Below are positions 4,260 through 18,366 of a DNA stretch of 55,332 nt, piece by piece. This DNA comes from Bacillus gaemokensis (lineage in GTDB: Bacteria; Bacillota; Bacilli; Bacillales; Bacillaceae_G). A model generated the notes under the pieces. The model saw only the letters and a list, made by a program, of their open reading frames with translations. It was not told the origin of the DNA and searched no databases. Every line of letters begins with the position of its first letter. Within the stretch, counting starts at the first letter, position 1. The stretch is taken from the NCBI RefSeq assembly GCF_001590835.1, contig NZ_LTAQ01000056.1, positions 69,316 through 124,647 of the forward strand. Direction: 5' to 3'. Position numbers and translations under genes: made by a program.

Positions 4260-5046
4260 GGCTGGCGTGGCGAAGACGCAGGAGTTTCGGAAGCCGAGGA
4301 AACGTAAGAAGGTAACGTTAGAGGAACGAGTTATTGATGGTGAAGTGGTTGTCGGAAAAGAGTGTACGAAGTGTGGCGAGTGGAAACCGTTAGATGGTGG
4401 TTTTGGTACAGATACGAGAGGGGTTGGAGGTAAAACTTCAGCTTGCAGGCTATGTAAAAGGGAAGTAAGTTCTAATTGGTATATAGAAAATAAAGAAAGA
4501 AAGTTGGATAGTCATCGAAAGTGGCGCGAAGAAAATAAGGAATATTACCGTAAGTACTACGAAGAAAACAAGGGAAAAGTTGCAGGGATTACTCGTAAAT
4601 GGAGACAGCACAACCCAGAAAAATATGTACTAACAAGACATCGTCGGTCTGCCAGAAAAAAGGCGTTACCTAGCGATTTCACAATCGAGCATGTAGAAAA
4701 AGTGTTAACACATTTCAGAAATAGATGTGTTTTAACAGACTCGACAGACTTTCATTGGGATCACGTAATACCGATATCTATAGGTCATGGTGGTACAGTA
4801 TACGGGAATATGATTCCGTTACGTGGTGACTTAAATGAATCAAAAGGCGATAAAAACATTTTCGATTGGTTCAAAACGAATAGGCAACGTTTTGAATTAT
4901 CGTACGAGAAATTTAACTTTCTTATCGAATGGTTGGCATTCGTTAACGGTAAGACAGTTCAGGAATATCGAGACTATGTGTACTGGTGTCATGAAAATCC
5001 TCGTACATTAGAAAATTTAGAAACAGAAAGCGAGGTAATGTCATGA
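4252..5046 (+). CDS. HNH endonuclease
   Basis: A 264-residue protein. Residues 35-75 hold a treble-clef zinc finger (CTKCGEWKPL and CRLCK) and residues 160-210 hold the HNH core (WDHVIPISIGHGG, then NMIPLRGDLNESKGDK). The basic, Tyr/Lys-rich linker (75-140) with repeated REENKEYYRKYYEENK-like units suggests DNA binding. The second Cys pair often found in HNH is reduced to a single Cys (RCVLT). It may be a homing endonuclease or phage packaging/replication nuclease; position among early genes favours a free-standing homing enzyme. Confidence 0.8.
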   Translation: MSKAGVAKTQEFRKPRKRKKVTLEERVIDGEVVVGKECTKCGEWKPLDGGFGTDTRGVGGKTSACRLCKREVSSNWYIENKERKLDSHRKWREENKEYYRKYYEENKGKVAGITRKWRQHNPEKYVLTRHRRSARKKALPSDFTIEHVEKVLTHFRNRCVLTDSTDFHWDHVIPISIGHGGTVYGNMIPLRGDLNESKGDKNIFDWFKTNRQRFELSYEKFNFLIEWLAFVNGKTVQEYRDYVYWCHENPRTLENLETESEVMS

Positions 5047-6316: not shown

Positions 6317-6700
6317 TTATCTATTTACAGTTATGTATGCTGTAAGTTCTCCATGATATGTTCTTTCAGATCCCCAAGCTCCATTAGCTACAACATCATA
6401 TTGACCTGCAGAAACGCCGTTTAGATAGAAACTTTCGTTAAACCATTTGCCATTGATACCAGCGTCTACATCTATACGTTTAACAACGTCGCCACCTTTG
6501 CTTACTAACTCAAGAACGCATCCTCCTGGAGGAGCTTGTCCAGATACATCAATAGATGTGGCATTTCTTGAATAAGTATTAGCATCTGTACTGAAACTAA
6601 TACTACCTTTTGATCCCATTGCAAATGCGTCAGAAGTACCGAATAGTAGGCCACTGCATAAAATACCTGCGGCTAACACGGATTGTCCAAATTTTTTCAT
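6317..6700 (-). CDS. Secreted Ig-like protein, likely lysogenic-conversion gene
   Basis: A 127-residue protein with a clear Sec signal peptide (MKKFGQSVLAAGILCSG, cleavage near DAFA). The mature part is Gly/Ser/Asn-rich with alternating beta-strand pattern (SIDVSGQAPPGGCVLELVSKG), like a small Ig fold. The ATG at 6700 with GGGGAGG 8 bases upstream is the start; an earlier TTG at 6718 overlaps that site. It stands alone, opposite to all surrounding genes, with its own terminator, and its codons are more AT-rich than the neighbours. This is the usual pattern of a moron expressed in the lysogen. The activity is unknown. Confidence 0.75.
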   Translation of the reverse strand: MKKFGQSVLAAGILCSGLLFGTSDAFAMGSKGSISFSTDANTYSRNATSIDVSGQAPPGGCVLELVSKGGDVVKRIDVDAGINGKWFNESFYLNGVSAGQYDVVANGAWGSERTYHGELTAYITVNR

Positions 6701-6775
6701 GTTGCATATCCTCCCCAAATAAATGTTATATACAAATATTAGGTTAACACGAATGGCAATATTTGGTCAACGAAA

Positions 6776-8875: not shown

Positions 8876-9070
8876 ATGGAGGATATAAAAGAATTCTTAT
8901 CAAAAAGAATACGCCACGCAAGAAATAGAGCCATTGCAATAAAAGAAACGCACGGAGATAACCCAAACGAAACTCATAATTATTTTGGCGGACATACCTT
9001 AGGATACTGGGAAGGAAAGTTATCCGCATATCAATCCATTCTTGATGAAATCGAATACGATGAGACTTAA
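8876..9070 (+). CDS. Small hypothetical protein between helicase and primase
   Basis: A 64-residue charged helical protein with GGGAG upstream. The central motif THNYFGGHTLGYWEGKLSAYQ is rich in aromatic residues and is seen in small phage proteins of unknown role. Its place between helicase and primase suggests a replication accessory role, which is only inference. Confidence 0.65.
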   Translation: MEDIKEFLSKRIRHARNRAIAIKETHGDNPNETHNYFGGHTLGYWEGKLSAYQSILDEIEYDET

Positions 9071-9088
9071 AACGAAAGAGGTGACAAC

Positions 9089-10087
9089 ATGCCAACGATT
9101 AAGATTCGCGGACAAGACGTAAACGTTGATATCGAGTACGAACTCAGACAGCATTCCTGGACTAATGAACGATGGTCATCTGATAAGCTGATTGCTGCAA
9201 GTCCGTTCCGATTCGAACATACACCGAGTTTCTTCGTCAACCTAGACGGAGATTACGCAGGTACGTGGAAAGACTCAGGCGCATTCGATGCAGAATGGGA
9301 AAGTGGCAACTTTACCCAACTGATATCCTACTTGCGAAATGAAACGTATGAAGAAACGGAAGAGTATTTGTTAGAATCGTACGGCACTAGTTACACTTAC
9401 GACAACCTCGTACTAAAACCAACGAAACTCCGGATTGACACCGGTCGCAAGGCCCTCGATTTTGGTCGGTTGCAAGAGTACGCGTTTAGACATCCATACT
9501 TAGAACAACGAGGCATTAGCGAGGAAGTACAACGGCAGATGAAGATCGGTTACGACCGCTTTAGGCAGGCGGTGGTAATTCCGTGGTTTGATACAAATGG
9601 TAGATTGGCGAATATTAAGTATCGAAAAACGCGCGGCAAAGCGTTTTGGTACGAAAAGGACGGAAAGCCAATAGGAGATTTAATATACGGTTTACACCTT
9701 GCTTACAAACGGAACATAAAACGTGCAGTATATTGTGAGGCGGAGATAGATGCGGTGTCGTTTATGACGGCAGGAGTTTTCGGATTGGCAAACGGAGGCT
9801 CGTCGTTTAATGAGCGTAAGGCGGAACAAATATTGAAGTCGCCAATAGAAGAACTTGTTATCGTGGCGGATAACGACCCGGCAGGCGAGAAACTTCGGAG
9901 AGAACTTGAGAAATATTTAAACGGTAAAATACGGTTGACGAACGGTTATATAAACGGATTTAACGATGCAAATGAGGCGTTGGTAAAGGAAGGGGTAAAT
10001 TCTTTACGATCCGTAGTTGATAATGCGGAGCCAGTTCGATTAAAATTATTATACGTGAATTCACGTAGTGATGGTCGGGGGAAGTAA
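9089..10087 (+). CDS. DNA primase, Toprim domain
   Basis: A 332-residue DnaG-type protein. The C-terminal Toprim domain shows the conserved Glu in VYCEAEIDA (about 217-219) and the DxD in VADNDPAG (261-263). The N-terminal 100 residues resemble the zinc-binding CHC2 region in layout (ASPFRFEHTPSFFVN) but lack its cysteines. It probably primes lagging-strand synthesis with the helicase at 7512. The dispersed palindrome TACGTGAATTCACGTA lies inside its last 40 bases. Confidence 0.85.
   Translation: MPTIKIRGQDVNVDIEYELRQHSWTNERWSSDKLIAASPFRFEHTPSFFVNLDGDYAGTWKDSGAFDAEWESGNFTQLISYLRNETYEETEEYLLESYGTSYTYDNLVLKPTKLRIDTGRKALDFGRLQEYAFRHPYLEQRGISEEVQRQMKIGYDRFRQAVVIPWFDTNGRLANIKYRKTRGKAFWYEKDGKPIGDLIYGLHLAYKRNIKRAVYCEAEIDAVSFMTAGVFGLANGGSSFNERKAEQILKSPIEELVIVADNDPAGEKLRRELEKYLNGKIRLTNGYINGFNDANEALVKEGVNSLRSVVDNAEPVRLKLLYVNSRSDGRGK
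10052..10067. repeat. 16-bp palindrome TACGTGAATTCACGTA, copy 2
   Basis: Identical to the copy at 118-133, embedded in the primase 3' end just before the convergent regulator gene. Confidence 0.55.
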
Positions 10088-10111
10088 TAAGACCTTCCCG
10101 TTAATTAGATG

Positions 10112-10339
10112 TTAATCCGTACTCCCATCTTCCCATTCGTATAAATCCTCGATGTCACAATGTAGTATAGAAGCGATGTTGCGCGCTCGTTCTACATTCG
10201 GTAAATTACGCAGGCTGACATAATCCGTTATGGATTGCGGTACGATACCGACTTTCCTAGCGAGATCAGCTTGTGTAATACTGTTTTTCTTACATAGTTC
10301 GGGAATACGGCACCTTCCGACTTTAAACGATGTAATCAC
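10112..10339 (-). CDS. Cro/CI-type HTH regulator
   Basis: A 75-residue protein that is essentially one XRE-type helix-turn-helix (ITQADLARKVGIVPQSITDYVS, residues 20-45). The GTG start at 10339 sits immediately after AAAGGAG, with TAGGAA a little further up; an internal start is possible. Together with the next leftward gene it forms a small operon divergent from aimR, so it is placed to control the lysis-lysogeny switch. Confidence 0.8.
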   Translation of the reverse strand: MITSFKVGRCRIPELCKKNSITQADLARKVGIVPQSITDYVSLRNLPNVERARNIASILHCDIEDLYEWEDGSTD

Positions 10340-10370
10340 CTCCTTTCCTAAATCGGAGGCTTAGAAACTA

Positions 10371-10574
10371 TTACCCTTGATTGCTCACAATTTTAACTAC
10401 TTTTTCTATAGGTACGTCTAGATGTAGACAAATTTCTTCTATTGTACTTAAATTTACAGACATTCCTTTGTTAATATTCGCAATGGTTCTTGCGTTTAAA
10501 ATTTTACCGCGGAGATCACTAATTACCATTTCTTTTTCTTTTAGCGTCTCATGTAACGGAGAGTAGTCAATCAT
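10371..10574 (-). CDS. Small YozG-like HTH regulator
   Basis: A 67-residue HTH_26/XRE-like protein (VISDLRGKILNARTIANINK, then LSTIEEICLHLDVPIEKVVKI). AAGGACG precedes ATG. It starts 39 bases from the palindrome GTTTACAAAAGTAAAC that overlaps the divergent aimR promoter, so it is a good candidate to bind there. Confidence 0.8.
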   Translation of the reverse strand: MIDYSPLHETLKEKEMVISDLRGKILNARTIANINKGMSVNLSTIEEICLHLDVPIEKVVKIVSNQG

Positions 10575-10613
10575 TTTAACACGTCCTTAAAAAAGTTTCT
10601 CAACCTATTGTGC

Positions 10614-10643
10614 GTTTACAAAAGTAAACATTGGAATTATAAT
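10614..10643 (+). promoter_or_regulatory. aimR promoter with overlapping operator
   Basis: A -35 box TTTACA (10615-10620), a 17-base spacer and TATAAT (10638-10643). The perfect inverted repeat GTTTAC-AAAA-GTAAAC (10614-10629) covers the -35 box, and ACATTGGAAT (10628-10637) fills the spacer. A near copy of the operator (GTTTAC-GAAA-GTATAC) and the second motif both recur downstream of aimP, suggesting common control. Confidence 0.75.
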
Positions 10644-10688
10644 TATATTATACCAAAATTTTCTTATACAGCATAGGAGGGTTTTCAA

Positions 10689-11906
10689 GTGCCGGGGTTT
10701 CATAGAGAGATATGCGATATTATAAATGATAGAGACGATATAACATTTTCAGCAGTCGGAGAAAAAATAGAAGCATCCAAGCAGTGTATGTCTAAATTCA
10801 AAAAGGATGGAACCATAGGATTTAGAAAACTCTTGAGACTCTCCTATTACTTCTTTCCTGATAAACAACGTGAGAAGATGGATAAATGGTGTTTACAGCT
10901 AGATTCAGCCGAATCGATTCAGCAAAGCTTGGAGTATGCAGCAATTACAAGAAATGTCTCTTTGCTTAAAAAGCTTTTAAAGCTACATAAAAAAGAAACA
11001 GGTATAATCGGAGATTATGTGAATGTATATAATGTGATTTATAGATACATGAATTATGACATAGACGGTCATGAAATAATCGGAAATTTAAAAAAGATTG
11101 ATAACATTGAAGATAATACCCTTGTGATTTTAGTTAATATACTCAAGTGCTACAATTATTTTGCACAGAAAAAAATTCATCTTATGTTGGATTTGGCTTT
11201 AGAAGTAGAAGAAATGATAAAAAATCTAAGTGATAGTCGTAAATTATTTATTAAAGAATGTTATTTGCATAGACTAGCGGAAATATTAGCGCCAGTTTAT
11301 TTACATAGAAACGAGCTAGAATTATCGAGACATTACTCTTTTTTAATAATTAATGCTAATATCTGCGCGAAAACTGTATCTGATGCGTCATATTATGTAG
11401 GGATGACGTACTTGACTGAGGATGAAGAGAAATGTTTAGAGTATCTTCAGAAGAGTCACGATATCGCTAAAACTGTCGGAGTAAAAGATTTGATTATCCA
11501 AACAAGAGATAACCTAGATTATGTTAAAATTTACCTAGGAGTACCACTTGGGATGGATTCAGATGCGAGACTTGTGATGTATCAGAATAATCGATTAAAC
11601 GGAAAAATGATTGACGATTACATAGAAGAAAGGGGAGAAAGAGATTTTCTTTTGATGTACCAAGCTTGCAATCAAAATTCAATCCCTGAGTTATACGAGC
11701 GCTTTCAAAGATTCTTTTCGAATTCGAACTTCTATTTCTCTAGTCTAGTGGCTAAGGAAATATACGACAGAGGCGATCGTTCCATGATGACGCAGATGCT
11801 AACTAACTTTAAATCTAATCATACAAAGGGAGAGATTCAATTTGAAAAAAGTTTTATTAGGAGTTTCCGCAGTTTTAACTCTAGCTCTGGGGGTATTTGC
11901 GCTTAA
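10689..11906 (+). CDS. aimR: Arbitrium peptide receptor and transcription regulator, AimR-like
   Basis: A 405-residue protein with an N-terminal helix-turn-helix (about 15-60) followed entirely by TPR-like helical repeats, the architecture of AimR receptors of SPbeta-group phages (about 380-390 residues). A segment reading MDKWCLQLDSAESIQQSLEYA closely resembles the MKDYCLNLD...SALEYA block I remember from phi3T AimR. In the known system peptide-free AimR activates aimX transcription and promotes lysis; peptide binding stops this and promotes lysogeny. It starts at GTG after AGGAGGG. The next frame-shifted gene overlapping its end is a secreted prepeptide, which strongly supports the call. 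The gene is more AT-rich than its neighbours. Confidence 0.88.
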   Translation: MPGFHREICDIINDRDDITFSAVGEKIEASKQCMSKFKKDGTIGFRKLLRLSYYFFPDKQREKMDKWCLQLDSAESIQQSLEYAAITRNVSLLKKLLKLHKKETGIIGDYVNVYNVIYRYMNYDIDGHEIIGNLKKIDNIEDNTLVILVNILKCYNYFAQKKIHLMLDLALEVEEMIKNLSDSRKLFIKECYLHRLAEILAPVYLHRNELELSRHYSFLIINANICAKTVSDASYYVGMTYLTEDEEKCLEYLQKSHDIAKTVGVKDLIIQTRDNLDYVKIYLGVPLGMDSDARLVMYQNNRLNGKMIDDYIEERGERDFLLMYQACNQNSIPELYERFQRFFSNSNFYFSSLVAKEIYDRGDRSMMTQMLTNFKSNHTKGEIQFEKSFIRSFRSFNSSSGGICA

Positions 11907-11973
11907 TGGATTTGCAGATGCACAAGGGAGTAATCAACAATATAAAGCACAAGAAACTAGACCAGGCGGTTGA
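11842..11973 (+). CDS. aimP: Arbitrium prepeptide, AimP-like
   Basis: A 43-residue prepeptide in the +1 frame overlapping the last 65 bases of aimR. It starts at TTG with GGGAGAG upstream. Residues 1-27 form a signal peptide (KK, hydrophobic core, ADA-type cleavage site), then a short pro-region rich in Gln, and the last residues are ETRPGG. In SPbeta-group phages the mature signal is the C-terminal hexapeptide freed by extracellular proteases, so ETRPGG is the predicted signal. Its RPGG end differs from the RGA end common in B. subtilis peptides. A terminator follows 25 bases later. Confidence 0.85.
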   Translation: MKKVLLGVSAVLTLALGVFALNGFADAQGSNQQYKAQETRPGG

Positions 11974-11997
11974 TTATTAATTAAATAAAATTACTAA

Positions 11998-12028
11998 GGG
12001 CGGTCTTATTGATCGCTCTTTCTTTTTG
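11998..12028 (+). terminator. Terminator after aimR-aimP
   Basis: Stem GGGCGGTC with GATCGCTC (one G-T pair), loop TTATT, then TTTCTTTTT. It ends the aimR-aimP transcript and isolates the following promoter region. Confidence 0.85.
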
Positions 12029-12039
12029 TTTATTAAAAT

Positions 12040-12127
12040 GTTTACGAAAGTATACAAAGTATAAATTCCAGTACTTAGTGTACTTTGCTAAATATTCCAA
12101 TGTAACATGCTATACTTTGAACATTGG
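12040..12127 (+). promoter_or_regulatory. Candidate AimR-controlled promoter region
   Basis: Dense with inverted repeats: GTTTAC-GAAA-GTATAC (12040-12055), CAAAGTA (12055-12061) with TACTTTG (12081-12087), and CCAATGT (12097-12103) with ACATTGG (12121-12127). The last pair flanks an extended -10 box (TGCTATACT, TATACT at 12111-12116) that lacks a good -35 box, as expected of an activator-dependent promoter. ACATTGGAAT also lies in the aimR promoter. In known arbitrium phages the aimX promoter is at this position. Confidence 0.6.
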
Positions 12128-12221
12128 TAATAAACAAAAAATTTTCTTTAAAAAATATTAAAAAAAATGTGCGCGGGCTTGGCCGCTTGTGCGTCATAGT
12201 TATTGTAAGGGGGAATTGAAA

Positions 12222-12863
12222 GTGAAAGACGAACAAAAATTGAATATTAACGAAAAGGCAAACGATTATCTCAGAACCGGTGATGGTTATGCATTCACGG
12301 ATTTGTACACTAGTTTATCGGAGATATATCGGGACAAGCTACGGTATTGGAGTACGAGTACATACATGGCAACAGAACACGATATAACCGGATTGTTCCA
12401 CGATGTAATTCAGAAAGTATTGAATAATTTACGGAATAACGCTGGCGGCGATTTCGTAAAACTATTCACAGTATCATTGAAAAATGAGTACAGTTCATTA
12501 TTACGAAAGTTACGTACTAGGCGAAAGTACGAGTTATATGACGGACCAGAAAGCGATGGAGAAGAGAACACGGCAATGTTCGAAACTCTCGCTGACGATT
12601 ACGATTTAGAAGATCACGTTATAAAAAAGAAAGAAGCCGACCAGCGACAACTGATCGACTTCCTCGTAGACCCGGACAAGGTCATTGACGAAACAACGAC
12701 GACAATCGTTGAGACGTTTTTAGTGAGTAATAAGCCAACGCCGACGACAATCGGAAAAAAGTTAGGCTTACATCACTCGACAGTAATCCGCAAGCTCGGA
12801 CGCTTGGCAAAGCGTTTCGACGAGAAGCAATTCGGTGATTACCGAGATTACTTACTTGCGTAA
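12222..12863 (+). CDS. Sigma-70-like transcription factor
   Basis: A 213-residue protein. The N-terminal part resembles sigma region 2 (TDLYTSLSEIYRDKLRYW, then HDITGLFHDVIQKVL) and the C-terminus is a region-4-like HTH (TPTTIGKKLGLHHSTVIRKLGRL). GTG at 12222 follows AAGGGGGA; an upstream ATG at 12189 lacks a binding site. It is the first gene after the arbitrium locus and the candidate AimR-controlled promoter, so it could carry the lytic signal on to the replication genes. The family assignment is moderate, since region 2 is weak. Confidence 0.65.
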   Translation: MKDEQKLNINEKANDYLRTGDGYAFTDLYTSLSEIYRDKLRYWSTSTYMATEHDITGLFHDVIQKVLNNLRNNAGGDFVKLFTVSLKNEYSSLLRKLRTRRKYELYDGPESDGEENTAMFETLADDYDLEDHVIKKKEADQRQLIDFLVDPDKVIDETTTTIVETFLVSNKPTPTTIGKKLGLHHSTVIRKLGRLAKRFDEKQFGDYRDYLLA

Positions 12864-13415
12864 TAATACGTTCTATATGCTTAGGCATTGCATATAGAAA
12901 ATCCATAATAGCACATTATGTTTGTTGTACGGAGGGGTGTTAAATAGCCCCTTTGTACTTACAAATAACCGACTTGGCAGGTCGATCAATTGCAATGGTT
13001 TTGTTTAACGTTAGGCAAGTTAACTTAACTTACTTTACGTTAAATGGAAGTCCAATGGTAGGACCTCATTTTTATTATAACGTATTACGGAAGTGCGTAC
13101 AAATCAATTCTTTGTAAATTCCATCGACATTATACTACATAATACGTTTTATCCGGATATTAAAAGATAATATAACGCTGTTTATAGATGCACGTCGATA
13201 TAACGTCATTACCTGCGTATTTCCCCTGAATATGAACAACGGGTAGTGGCGTCATATGGGCGTCTGGCATTACGGTACGATGCTTTTCGTTCAAACAAAA
13301 CTTTATCTTTTCTACCGATGTATCCCCCGCGTCGGTATTGCGTAATTGAAGTCAGTTGCGTAATACGGGCGTGGGACTTACCCAAGCTCGAATAATAAAC
13401 GAAGGAGTTGTTTCA
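12864..13415. other. 550-base non-coding segment with two strong hairpins
   Basis: No frame with a ribosome binding site. Two hairpins follow the sigma-like gene: a perfect 10-bp stem TTCTATATGC/GCATATAGAA (12871-12899), and an 11-bp stem with two G-T pairs, GTACGGAGGGG/CCCCTTTGTAC (12927-12958). Neither is followed by a clear U-tract. Further on the sequence is mixed and rich in GCG/TACG words. It could encode a structured regulatory RNA or hold an origin. Confidence 0.4.
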
Positions 13416-14174
13416 ATGGGCATTAGAGAAACGTTAAAAAAGCGTGAGGAACAACGTGAAGCTAATCAAAACGGAGGTAACAACGATTTTCCAGAAGGCG
13501 TAACGAGATACGTACGAATGGGAAAACACGGTGAAGTAAATGCGGAAGGTCGCACGTTCATCTTACTAGCTGAACCGGACGAATGGTATTTCTACTTTGT
13601 ACACGAAGACAAAACATTCGATGGTAAACGTACGATCCACCGTTTCCGAAAGCATTCATGCTTACATTCACCGAAAGCCATTAACGCAGATATTACGCAA
13701 TACTTCAAGCCAGGTAAATCTGAATGTCCGTCGTGCAAAGTCGGTGCGAAACGTAAGATGTACGCAATGATTCCAGTGTACGACCTAGAGTATGAAACTT
13801 ACCGCGTGATCGATACGGCTGAGTTCCATATCAACAATATCATTGCTGACTACGACAAAGCTGAAAAGATGGGTCGTAAATTTAATCCAGACTACTCGTT
13901 GGTAGGCGAAGCGGTACACATTAAACAAGTCGATAAATCGTATTCGCTTGAATCAGGGGAAGCAACGGACGAGCAAATCGAAAAGGCGAAAACGTTTATC
14001 GGTACGGAATTTGGTTACGAAGACTTAGCAAACTTCCGTGAGGAAAGCGACGTTGTTACGTTATTACAAGATGCGGAAGATGATGCGATTGATAAATCGA
14101 AATTACCAAGTACATCAAAATCAAGCAACGAAGGCACACCAATCGAAATTACGGAAGACGAACTACCGTTCTAA
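13416..14174 (+). CDS. Single-stranded DNA-binding protein, gp32-like
   Basis: A 252-residue protein with the layout of T4 gp32-type SSBs: a basic N-terminus, an OB-fold core (EGVTRYVRMGKHGEVN to about 190) with a zinc-site pattern (HSCLHSP and CPSCKVG), and a very acidic tail ending ITEDELPF, the usual partner-docking tail. It binds exposed single strands at the phage fork. The ATG at 13416 has AAGGAG 9 bases upstream; an upstream frame extension without a site was discarded. It starts a long replication operon. Confidence 0.85.
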   Translation: MGIRETLKKREEQREANQNGGNNDFPEGVTRYVRMGKHGEVNAEGRTFILLAEPDEWYFYFVHEDKTFDGKRTIHRFRKHSCLHSPKAINADITQYFKPGKSECPSCKVGAKRKMYAMIPVYDLEYETYRVIDTAEFHINNIIADYDKAEKMGRKFNPDYSLVGEAVHIKQVDKSYSLESGEATDEQIEKAKTFIGTEFGYEDLANFREESDVVTLLQDAEDDAIDKSKLPSTSKSSNEGTPIEITEDELPF

Positions 14175-16185: not shown

Positions 16186-18366
16186 ATGACGCCGAAATTA
16201 ACGTTAAACTTAAAAATACCAGGTGCTGAGGACGAAGCGGCGGTAAAAGAACGAGTGGAAAAAGCGGTCGAGCGAAAGGCAAAGGCGACCGAAACGATGG
16301 AAGACGCGTGGCAACGGATTCTATCGATGAAGAACAGTGAGTCTGATAGGCAGAGACTTGCGGAAGTAAAAGAAGCGATGAAGAAGGGCGAAATTGGTCG
16401 TAGCCCTTCCGACCTCGCTAAACGTTTTAGTAAGGCGGAAGCTTTACGATTATGGAAAACGTTACATGCTCATAAGAGAGAAGATAAGATACGTGAAATG
16501 GTGTTGGCTACACCGGATAATTACGTATTAGTTATCGATGGCAAAGTATTAAAGCAAATGTTAGACGATATGAAAATGTCCGATTTAGTCGGATTTGACT
16601 GTGAGACATTCGGAGAGGATAACGGAGCGTTAGACCCATGGAAAGGTGAAGTCGCTGGCTTTTCGGTAACAACGAGAAGTCACAATTACTATGTACCGTT
16701 GAATCACGAAGAAGGCCCGAATTTAAGCGAAGATGTTTTATTGAAATACGTTAAACCTGTATTGGAGCAAGTGAAAACCGTAATGCACAACGCACCTTTT
16801 GACTGTAAATGGTTTATGCAGCGTTACGGAATAAACTTAATCGATAATTTACATGCAGATACACGTATTATGGCAATGGCATTAGACGAAAATCGAAACC
16901 ATAGGTTAAAGGATTTAATAACGGATTGGTTACGTCAGCCTAGCGATAATTTCGATGAGTTATTCGGTAAAACTCCGTTTAATCAGATTCCGTTAGATGT
17001 AGCGTTAGTGTACGCAGCGGGAGATACGGAAAAAACCTTGAAACTTTACGATTGGATTATGGAGTGGTTTGACAAACGAGAGGATTTACAAGAAATTAAG
17101 TCGCTCGTTTTTAACATAGAGATGCCCGTATGTAGGCAGTTTATTAAGTCGGATTTGATCGGTATCAACTTCGATGAAGAAAAAGCGAATGTATTAGACG
17201 AACAACTGGCTGAAGAGGAAGCGGAAATACAGCATGAGATATACGAATTATTTGACGAAGAAATTAACTTAGGTTCACCAGTGCAATTGAAGAAAAAATT
17301 ATTCGTAGATTTAAAGTTACCGGATATAGAAAACGGATCAACAGGCGTCAAAGCGTTGAAGAAGTTGAAAGGGAAACATCCTGTAATTTCTAAGATTCTC
17401 GATTATCGAGGCGTCAGTAAACTACGTGAAGCATTTACACAAAAGTTACCGAAAGAAATCAAACACGATAACAAAATACATCCGTGGCATAACACGTACG
17501 GAGCGGCGACAGGACGGTTCACATGCAAATCGCCAAACACCCAGCAAATTCCCGCAAAGCGTCCTGAGATACGCCACCTGTTTACATCGAGTGCATGTAA
17601 AATACTCGTTTCTATAGATTACTCGCAAATTGAATTACGCGTATTAGCGCATATGGCACAAGAACCGGAACTAATCAAGGCGTTCAAGGAAGGACGCGAT
17701 ATTCACTCGACTACGGCAGCGATGATTAGTAACGGTAAATATACGTATGAGGATATCGAAGCAAATAAAGATACAGACGGTTCACCGGAACAGAAATTTC
17801 GTAAGCAAGCTAAGGTAGTTAACTTCGGTATTGTATACGGAATGAGCGACAAAGGGTTAGCCGATACGTTAGGTATTACGAGAACTGAAGCGCAAACAAT
17901 TATTGATAACTACTTCAAAGGTTACAAAGGGATTCAACGATATATGGACGAGCAGAAACTATTGGCCCGTAAGCAAGGGTATATTACGGATATTTTCGGT
18001 AGGAAACGTCGGTTACACACCGAGTACAAGTCGAAAGATCGTTTCTTACATTTCCGTGCAGATCGTATGGCAGGTAACTTTCCGATACAAGCGTCAGCCG
18101 GTTCGATTTTAAAGAAAGCAATCGTAGATTTACAGAATGTTTTACCGAAATATAACGTAGATATATTACTCCAGGTACATGACGAATTATTATTTGAGTG
18201 TCCGAGAGATATTTCGAAGGAAGCATTATTCGAATTAAAAACTACGATGGAAAACGCAGTTGAATTATTAGTTCCCGTCAGATGTGACGTTGAGATAAAT
18301 CCAGAACGATGGTTAGAAAAAGTGAGTATCGAAAAGTGGTTTAACGAAGAGGAGGAAACGGAATGA
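16186..18366 (+). CDS. DNA polymerase I family (family A), exonuclease-proficient
   Basis: A 726-residue replicative polymerase. The 3'-5' exonuclease is intact: DCE (138-140), HNAPFDCKW (Asp 206) and YAAGD (276-280). The polymerase domain shows the TGRFTCKSPNTQQIP segment, motif A VSIDYSQIELR (Asp 478), motif B RKQAKVVNFGIVYG (539-552) and motif C QVHDELLFE. It lacks the 5' nuclease domain of bacterial PolA, as is usual for phage enzymes. The N-terminal 100 residues are a charged helical extension. It overlaps the next gene by ATGA. Confidence 0.95.
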   Translation: MTPKLTLNLKIPGAEDEAAVKERVEKAVERKAKATETMEDAWQRILSMKNSESDRQRLAEVKEAMKKGEIGRSPSDLAKRFSKAEALRLWKTLHAHKREDKIREMVLATPDNYVLVIDGKVLKQMLDDMKMSDLVGFDCETFGEDNGALDPWKGEVAGFSVTTRSHNYYVPLNHEEGPNLSEDVLLKYVKPVLEQVKTVMHNAPFDCKWFMQRYGINLIDNLHADTRIMAMALDENRNHRLKDLITDWLRQPSDNFDELFGKTPFNQIPLDVALVYAAGDTEKTLKLYDWIMEWFDKREDLQEIKSLVFNIEMPVCRQFIKSDLIGINFDEEKANVLDEQLAEEEAEIQHEIYELFDEEINLGSPVQLKKKLFVDLKLPDIENGSTGVKALKKLKGKHPVISKILDYRGVSKLREAFTQKLPKEIKHDNKIHPWHNTYGAATGRFTCKSPNTQQIPAKRPEIRHLFTSSACKILVSIDYSQIELRVLAHMAQEPELIKAFKEGRDIHSTTAAMISNGKYTYEDIEANKDTDGSPEQKFRKQAKVVNFGIVYGMSDKGLADTLGITRTEAQTIIDNYFKGYKGIQRYMDEQKLLARKQGYITDIFGRKRRLHTEYKSKDRFLHFRADRMAGNFPIQASAGSILKKAIVDLQNVLPKYNVDILLQVHDELLFECPRDISKEALFELKTTMENAVELLVPVRCDVEINPERWLEKVSIEKWFNEEEETE

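Follow-up and report, generated by a model that had tools for sequence, protein, structure and literature searches.

Does a receptor-like gene with a small open reading frame (ORF) overlapping its 3′ end, found in a 55,332-nt stretch of Bacillus gaemokensis DNA (contig NZ_LTAQ01000056.1, positions 69,316 to 124,647; hereafter the window), form a phage arbitrium switch and, if so, what does it switch? Both features of an arbitrium system that can be decided here are present: Family model and fold both identify the receptor as AimR, and it is directly followed by a predicted secreted-type prepeptide gene, aimP, with a C-terminal signal. Judged from sequence, the locus is likely an arbitrium switch in which AimR activates a downstream promoter and the predicted peptide ETRPGG turns that promoter off, favoring lysogeny; such a system would probably let the phage choose between killing its host and hiding in it. 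The target so switched off may be the phage's own sigma factor. To our knowledge, AimR targets outside SPbeta-like phages are poorly known.

The receptor and its overlapping prepeptide gene

10689–11906, + strand: aimR, arbitrium receptor (405 aa, GTG start, AGGAGG upstream)
11842–11973, + strand: aimP, prepeptide of 43 aa carrying a signal sequence (TTG start; its ribosome site is within aimR)
11953–11970, + strand: codons for ETRPGG, the hexapeptide predicted as mature signal (unchanged in 18 of 72 related loci)
11996–12030, + strand: terminator-like hairpin and T tail, 3′ of aimP

The 405-residue protein, overlapping 43-residue prepeptide, and terminator named in a preliminary description of this DNA are all found. 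The Pfam AimR model matches receptor residues 61–358, the tetratricopeptide repeat (TPR) part, in agreement with the predicted structure, and the alignment with AimR families over this region scores far above the cut-off. The N-terminal part, earlier called a helix-turn-helix (HTH), aligns by fold with full-length AimR chains from residue 1, and the family-model search of the receptor gave no separate HTH match there; the TPR assignment thus stands, and a DNA-binding N terminus is supported by fold. The tail, from residue ∼378, overlaps aimP and is poorly predicted in the model.

We examined 74 loci, window included, drawn from scans of IMG/VR and genome contigs and from phage and plasmid matches, at identities from 86% to about 30%. 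Dropped before this count were L064 (a fragment), L002 (a record nearly identical to the window), L085–L092 (repeat matches), and L003–L011 (the same records as L019–L021, L025–L028, L032, and L037). A signal-peptide-like ORF lies at the 3′ end of aimR in 72 of the 74. In L014 and L037 the aimR frame is broken within an otherwise conserved region, owing to which our script placed no aimP, although an aimP ending DIRIGA is visible in L014. The window's AimP begins with basic residues, continues into a hydrophobic core, and ends in ...QETRPGG; its signal-like N terminus was judged by eye and pattern. Its gene overlaps aimR by 65 nt in a different frame, and in 57 of the 72 loci the start of aimP lies precisely 64 nt ahead of the final base of the aimR stop codon. 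The start codon is TTG in 62 and ATG in 10, and the product ends in GG in 70. The ribosome site and start sit in the aimR codons for a KG...FE stretch that is seemingly conserved in AimR. By these alignments the overlap is a feature of the family, not a quirk of the window.

Within the overlap, pairwise differences among 11 loci of the clade with ETxPGG peptides fall 153, 87, and 249 (of 489) on first, second, and third aimP codon positions, and the 29 variable sites 9, 7, and 13. Compared with the window, eight of 10 clade loci have 4–5 differences in 66 overlap positions vs. 174–211 in the 1152 of the rest of aimR; L031 has 13 and 292, and L033 has 20 in the overlap (being out of register in the whole-gene count, its value of 826 is excluded). 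Because overlap differences are few and concentrated at aimP third positions, aimP looks like the more constrained frame, i.e., the selected gene, with the AimR tail largely a passenger.

The probable AimR target region and the sigma-like gene

12047–12086, + strand: probable AimR operator, AAAGTATACAA-N18-TAGTGTACTTT (only such site in the window; family-level palindrome excess)
12108–12116, + strand: extended −10 TGCTATACT of the probable AimR-dependent promoter (TTT-N21-TGnTAnnnT pattern)
12164–12213, + strand: conserved bipartite element TGCGCG-N14-TGCGTC, probable promoter of the sigma-like gene
12222–12863, + strand: possible phage sigma factor gene, 213 aa (Sigma70_r2 in relatives, weak fold matches)
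1453–1500, + strand: second copy of the bipartite element (21 bits, E = 1.7e-05, outside the model-building set)
1533–1961, + strand: replication-initiation-like DNA-binding gene (phrog_12720, E = 3.3e-53; phrog_270, E = 3.7e-07)

From the computed receptor family and fold, the aimP frame with its conserved tail, and the repeats and their spacing, we infer a switch with the following peptide, binding steps, direction of regulation, and repressor. AimR, made early after infection, would bind the inverted repeat at 12047–12086 as a dimer and activate the extended −10 promoter at 12108–12116, which reads rightwards into the possible sigma factor gene. AimP, translated from its start inside the end of aimR, would be secreted, processed to ETRPGG, and taken up again through the oligopeptide permease of the host, export and import being assumed as in known arbitrium systems. 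Once abundant, ETRPGG would bind the TPR groove of AimR, shut the promoter, and favor lysogeny. In a lysogen, both the aimR promoter and the promoter targeted by AimR would probably be held down by a small XRE repressor via two related palindromes.

Summed over 22 loci, the best N18 palindrome scores 184 vs. 163.3 ± 3.5 in shuffled sequence (highest of 300 shuffles, 174), an excess that overstates independence since the loci are related; a coding control shows no excess (145 vs. 152.3 ± 3.6). Independently of this, the TTT-N21-TGnTAnnnT pattern occurs in 13 of the 22, against 0.45 expected. Apart from this relatedness, several observations speak against an AimR operator here: The window's palindrome is imperfect (9/11, P = 0.047), the palindrome alone falls below 0.05 in just four of 22 loci, the exact 21-bp spacing is absent in nine (with smaller peaks at 12, 20, 22, 26, and 30), and the arms of the AimR box resemble the repressor palindrome described below. 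Single-locus palindrome tests are mostly nonsignificant (P up to 0.99); support for the operator comes from the summed palindrome test and the spacing test. Together these point to a probable AimR-activated promoter at which the repressor competes.

One ETRPGG relative, L029, carries a group II intron (4430–4686; Rfam RF02001, 124.8 bits; RF01998, 46.2 bits) shortly past the aimP terminator region, between aimP and the AimR target region. Near the window locus, Rfam gave sub-gathering matches alone, which we took as chance.

For the sigma-like gene, Sigma70_r2 is found in five of 15 relatives (best E = 7.4e-08) and not in the window copy, whose fold matches are weak and nearly all to sigma factors. 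Neither PHROGs nor tblastn gave a direct match to the window protein, which slightly lowers the odds of the sigma-output wiring set out below. The second copy of the bipartite element (log-odds 29.2 vs. 12.8, the highest of four shuffles) lies directly upstream of the replication-initiation-like gene. Up to E = 1, each record of a relative has one to seven element matches. Some of these stand in tandem, about 40–60 bp apart, ahead of the first gene that follows the integrase, and other operons are likewise preceded by copies. Phage KLEB27-1 has two weak matches at or just inside the annotated gene start, not before the gene.

Might the element at 12164–12213 instead act as RNA, either as a hairpin attenuator in the leader of the sigma-like gene or as the AimX RNA itself? 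A 10-pair hairpin can be drawn at 12169–12194, and both its pairing (63.5% vs. 57.7% shuffled) and its covariation (0.250 vs. 0.173) exceed anything in 500 shuffles. However, six of the ten pairs are broken in at least six of 19 sequences, pairing is almost as good after shifts of −2 and +2 (55.6% and 56.6%), RNAalifold found no structure for the element leader, and copies stand upstream of other operons, at times in tandem. We regard an RNA role as unlikely, while giving it some weight, and continue to treat the element as a probable promoter. L049, having no promoter match, was left out of the leader alignment.

Three further candidates were discarded. A leader mini-ORF (MCAGLAACAS) considered as an AimX peptide has no stop in L018 and no ATG in L024 and L033. 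An element match inside aimR (11359–11398; 10 bits, E = 0.06) has no counterpart there in the searched ETxPGG-clade records, and one at 10710 (log-odds 16.0, above the shuffle maximum of 12.8) reaches 4.5 bits in the model search.

The elements of the presumptive repressor circuit, all but the last upstream of aimR, are as follows:

10614–10629: perfect palindrome GTTTACAAAAGTAAAC, probable XRE repressor operator O1, covering the −35 of the predicted aimR promoter
10615–10643, + strand: predicted aimR promoter, TTTACA-17-TATAAT (11/12 consensus matches)
10371–10574, − strand: divergent small XRE/Cro-like regulator, 67 aa (PF13443, E = 2.7e-05)
10112–10339, − strand: second divergent XRE/Cro-like regulator, 75 aa (PF13443, E = 6.1e-10)
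12040–12055: degenerate O1 copy, probable O2, overlapping the left arm of the AimR box

Position 10614, previously given as the start of the locus, is the first base of the palindrome over the predicted promoter and not a gene start. O1 adjoins the divergent XRE genes. Of 28 loci with DNA on the upstream side of aimR, 16 have a palindrome of this GT-N4 type (5–6 of 6 pairs) there, ten of the 16 belonging to the ETxPGG clade. O2 is the only other O1-type site in the window, by a pattern drawn from these same two sites, with as many matches in 10 of 100 shuffles; the promoter scan overall found five vs. 9.1 in shuffles.

These palindromes raise an alternative, namely that receptor and peptide form a real pair, yet it is the XRE repressor that uses the downstream repeat, and AimR acts elsewhere. 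The arms (AGTAAAC/GTTTACT in relatives) do look like the palindrome at the aimR promoter, a copy of which encloses the left arm; we nevertheless judge this alternative improbable, given that the arms are opposite in orientation across an 18-bp gap and at a fixed distance from the extended −10 in 13 of 22 loci. The EIKPGG record L043 has a visible N18 repeat (7/9, P = 0.5 alone), and no such palindrome was found upstream of its aimR. The geometry is also like that of the AimR box of SPbeta-type phages, described in PMC9232636 as likewise downstream of aimP, with 6-bp arms and a 25-bp gap.

The arbitrium output of this phage group (the "aimX" slot) could be a phage sigma factor, a tentative reading whose chances, with every link below taken jointly, fall just short of even. 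AimR would start sigma transcription; the sigma factor would feed back on its own promoter element and turn on the replication-initiation operon; ETRPGG would cut the first step, and the XRE repressor would compete with AimR for the overlapping operator. In relatives of the Bacillus subtilis group, sigma would also act on an element within aimR to drive aimP, which would close a negative loop. Among the papers listed by literature searches on arbitrium with a sigma factor, or phage sigma factors with lysogeny, no title or abstract start describes such wiring. A target promoter, its probable operator, a competing repressor site, and a possible downstream regulon are each given here to the base, so that for a phage group unlike SPbeta by its appearance, the control of lysis and lysogeny by a peptide can be put to direct test.

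The predicted mature peptide and its dialects

The 72 aimP loci, many of them near-copies of one another, end in ETRPGG (18), EIKPGG (10), INAIGG (8), DIRPGG (6), INIIGG (5), ANQLGG (5), ELRPGG (4), GIKVGG (4), ETTPGG (2), and PEKVGG (2), with single occurrences of ETKPGG, TIKPGG, DIKPGG, ANKVGG, AEKVGG, INKIGG, INSIGA, and KVTPGM. In L038 (1166–1315), AimP carries two tandem EIKPGG copies (...AEIKPGGIQYAEIKPGG), a double-message prepeptide. In a 59-row tree of the AimR core, some of whose branches are flagged as long, the 19 rows of ETxPGG receptors group as a single clade (support 100/100) nested in a larger group with EIKPGG-type and xxKVGG receptors (99/97), and peptide dialect follows receptor phylogeny.

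ETRPGG is invariant in its 18 loci while the residues upstream vary. The related EIKPGG is given as the hexapeptide pheromone of phage Wbeta in PMC8878798, which cites Stokar-Avihail 2019, and the same source reports that the peptide without its first E does not replace the intact one. On these grounds ETRPGG, the signal proposed earlier, is the best prediction. A neighbor of it, such as QETRPGG or TRPGG, seems quite improbable as the mature form: Q precedes E in 18/18 ETRPGG and 2/2 ETTPGG loci, but the ETKPGG locus L031 has A in its place, and the reported failure of E-less EIKPGG tells against the shorter form. As to the earlier suggestion of a distinct communication group, ETRPGG is a dialect of the PGG group and not a new class, PGG endings being known from Wbeta. 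None of the papers listed by a text search contains ETRPGG or QETRPGG, although the tables of Stokar-Avihail 2019 may list ETRPGG. Our additions are the family placement of this dialect, subject to what the tables of that main survey list, and the likely AimR–sigma–replication wiring; the matched receptor and peptide dialects, in one alignable family, are material for asking how receptors read peptides.

In Kat AimR, according to PMC9232636, R228 binds the peptide carboxylate and N273 and N202 hold the peptide backbone, while N206, N329, and D360 hold Arg4 of the peptide in RGA-type receptors. In our profile alignment the R228 column is K or R in 27/27 (K228 in the window) and N273 corresponds to N275 (N in 23/27); the N206, N329, and D360 columns are H, G, and N in the window, where position 4 of ETRPGG is Pro. 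Three points count against assigning receptor and peptide to arbitrium: N202 corresponds to P202, so that the contacts carry over incompletely; the columns were matched by eye on a distant alignment (∼15%–18% identity); and AimP scores below cut-off with all family models (AimP_fam, E = 0.12; Phr_nterm, E = 0.016). Since no model reaches cut-off, and aimP is unlisted in KLEB27-1, phi18-2, and two plasmid records (plasmid gene tables being incomplete by design), automatic annotation misses the gene; a third plasmid record lists a 42-aa ORF at its position. That the pair is a host Rap/PlcR-type quorum regulator taken up by the phage, rather than arbitrium, is highly improbable, even though such regulators share the AimR superfamily, Rap chains are the receptor's next best fold matches after AimR, and Phr_nterm is the best, if sub-threshold, NCBIfam model for the prepeptide.

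Phage type and relation to known systems

The preliminary description likened the arrangement to that of SPbeta-group phages; as to phage type, the evidence points elsewhere. The receptor is ∼16% identical to SPbeta AimR in the fold alignment (15%–18% to the SPbeta/phi3T/Katmira type), and tblastn of AimR in phage records returned six records, none of them SPbeta. The best 25 of at least 5000 matches to the DNA polymerase (16186–18366) likewise include no SPbeta; closest among the matches listed are Bacillus phages 268TH002/007 and Listeria, Sporosarcina, and Enterococcus phages (31%–36% identity), and the best-listed phage relatives mostly have genomes of 56–68 kb. By these comparisons the phage does not look SPbeta-group. 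Megablast of 9000–14000 and 30000–54999 against 50,697 phage records gave no match (near-records of the window were possibly left out), nor did 1–25000 against plasmids, and no tRNA genes were found in the window. For relatives, the organism or host on record is Bacillus, Peribacillus, or Mesobacillus, and for SpaA1 it is Staphylococcus pasteuri. Elsewhere in the window, an ORF at 6317–6718 (− strand) has a signal-like start and lies inside the rightward early region (phrog_28404, unknown function, E = 4.2e-32).

Compared with the arbitrium of SPbeta, phi3T, and Katmira, which uses RGA peptides (GMPRGA, GIVRGA, and the like) in a different phage type, the window has a PGG peptide, an aimP that overlaps aimR, and a sigma-like gene in the aimX position. 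Closest by receptor are the Wbeta-type systems (EIKPGG/TIKPGG; PMC8878798) and SpaA1 (EIKPGG), with AimR 42%–49% identical to the window's. They share the overlapping aimP, the PGG peptide and, in several, the N18 inverted repeat, but differ in having EIKPGG for ETRPGG and just one weak bipartite-element match in 10 records; SpaA1 also has a sigma70-annotated gene, but not beside aimP.

The propeptide of vB_BtS_B83, a clade 7 arbitrium, is printed in PMC6669507 as ending ADPGGSVG; by that published description, rather than the genome, it resembles the window in having AimR/AimP-like genes between XRE regulators and PGG near the propeptide end, and differs in the ending itself.

By wiring, the nearest systems are KLEB27-1 (DIRPGG), phi18-2 (INAIGG), and plasmid-annotated records of Bacillus paralicheniformis and Bacillus glycinifermentans. 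Their AimR is just 31%–33% identical to the window's, but they share the bipartite element and the order helicase, primase/toprim, XRE genes (unlisted in the B. glycinifermentans record), aimR, and then a gene in the sigma position, annotated as a sigma factor in KLEB27-1 and in B. glycinifermentans but as hypothetical in phi18-2 and B. paralicheniformis. Plasmid-annotated records of 65 and 39 kb (L015, NZ_CP126497.1; L016, NZ_MF996510.1) with this arbitrium and replication gene order may be phages or phage-plasmids. In phi18-2 and the two plasmid records, an extra element copy lies upstream of aimP.
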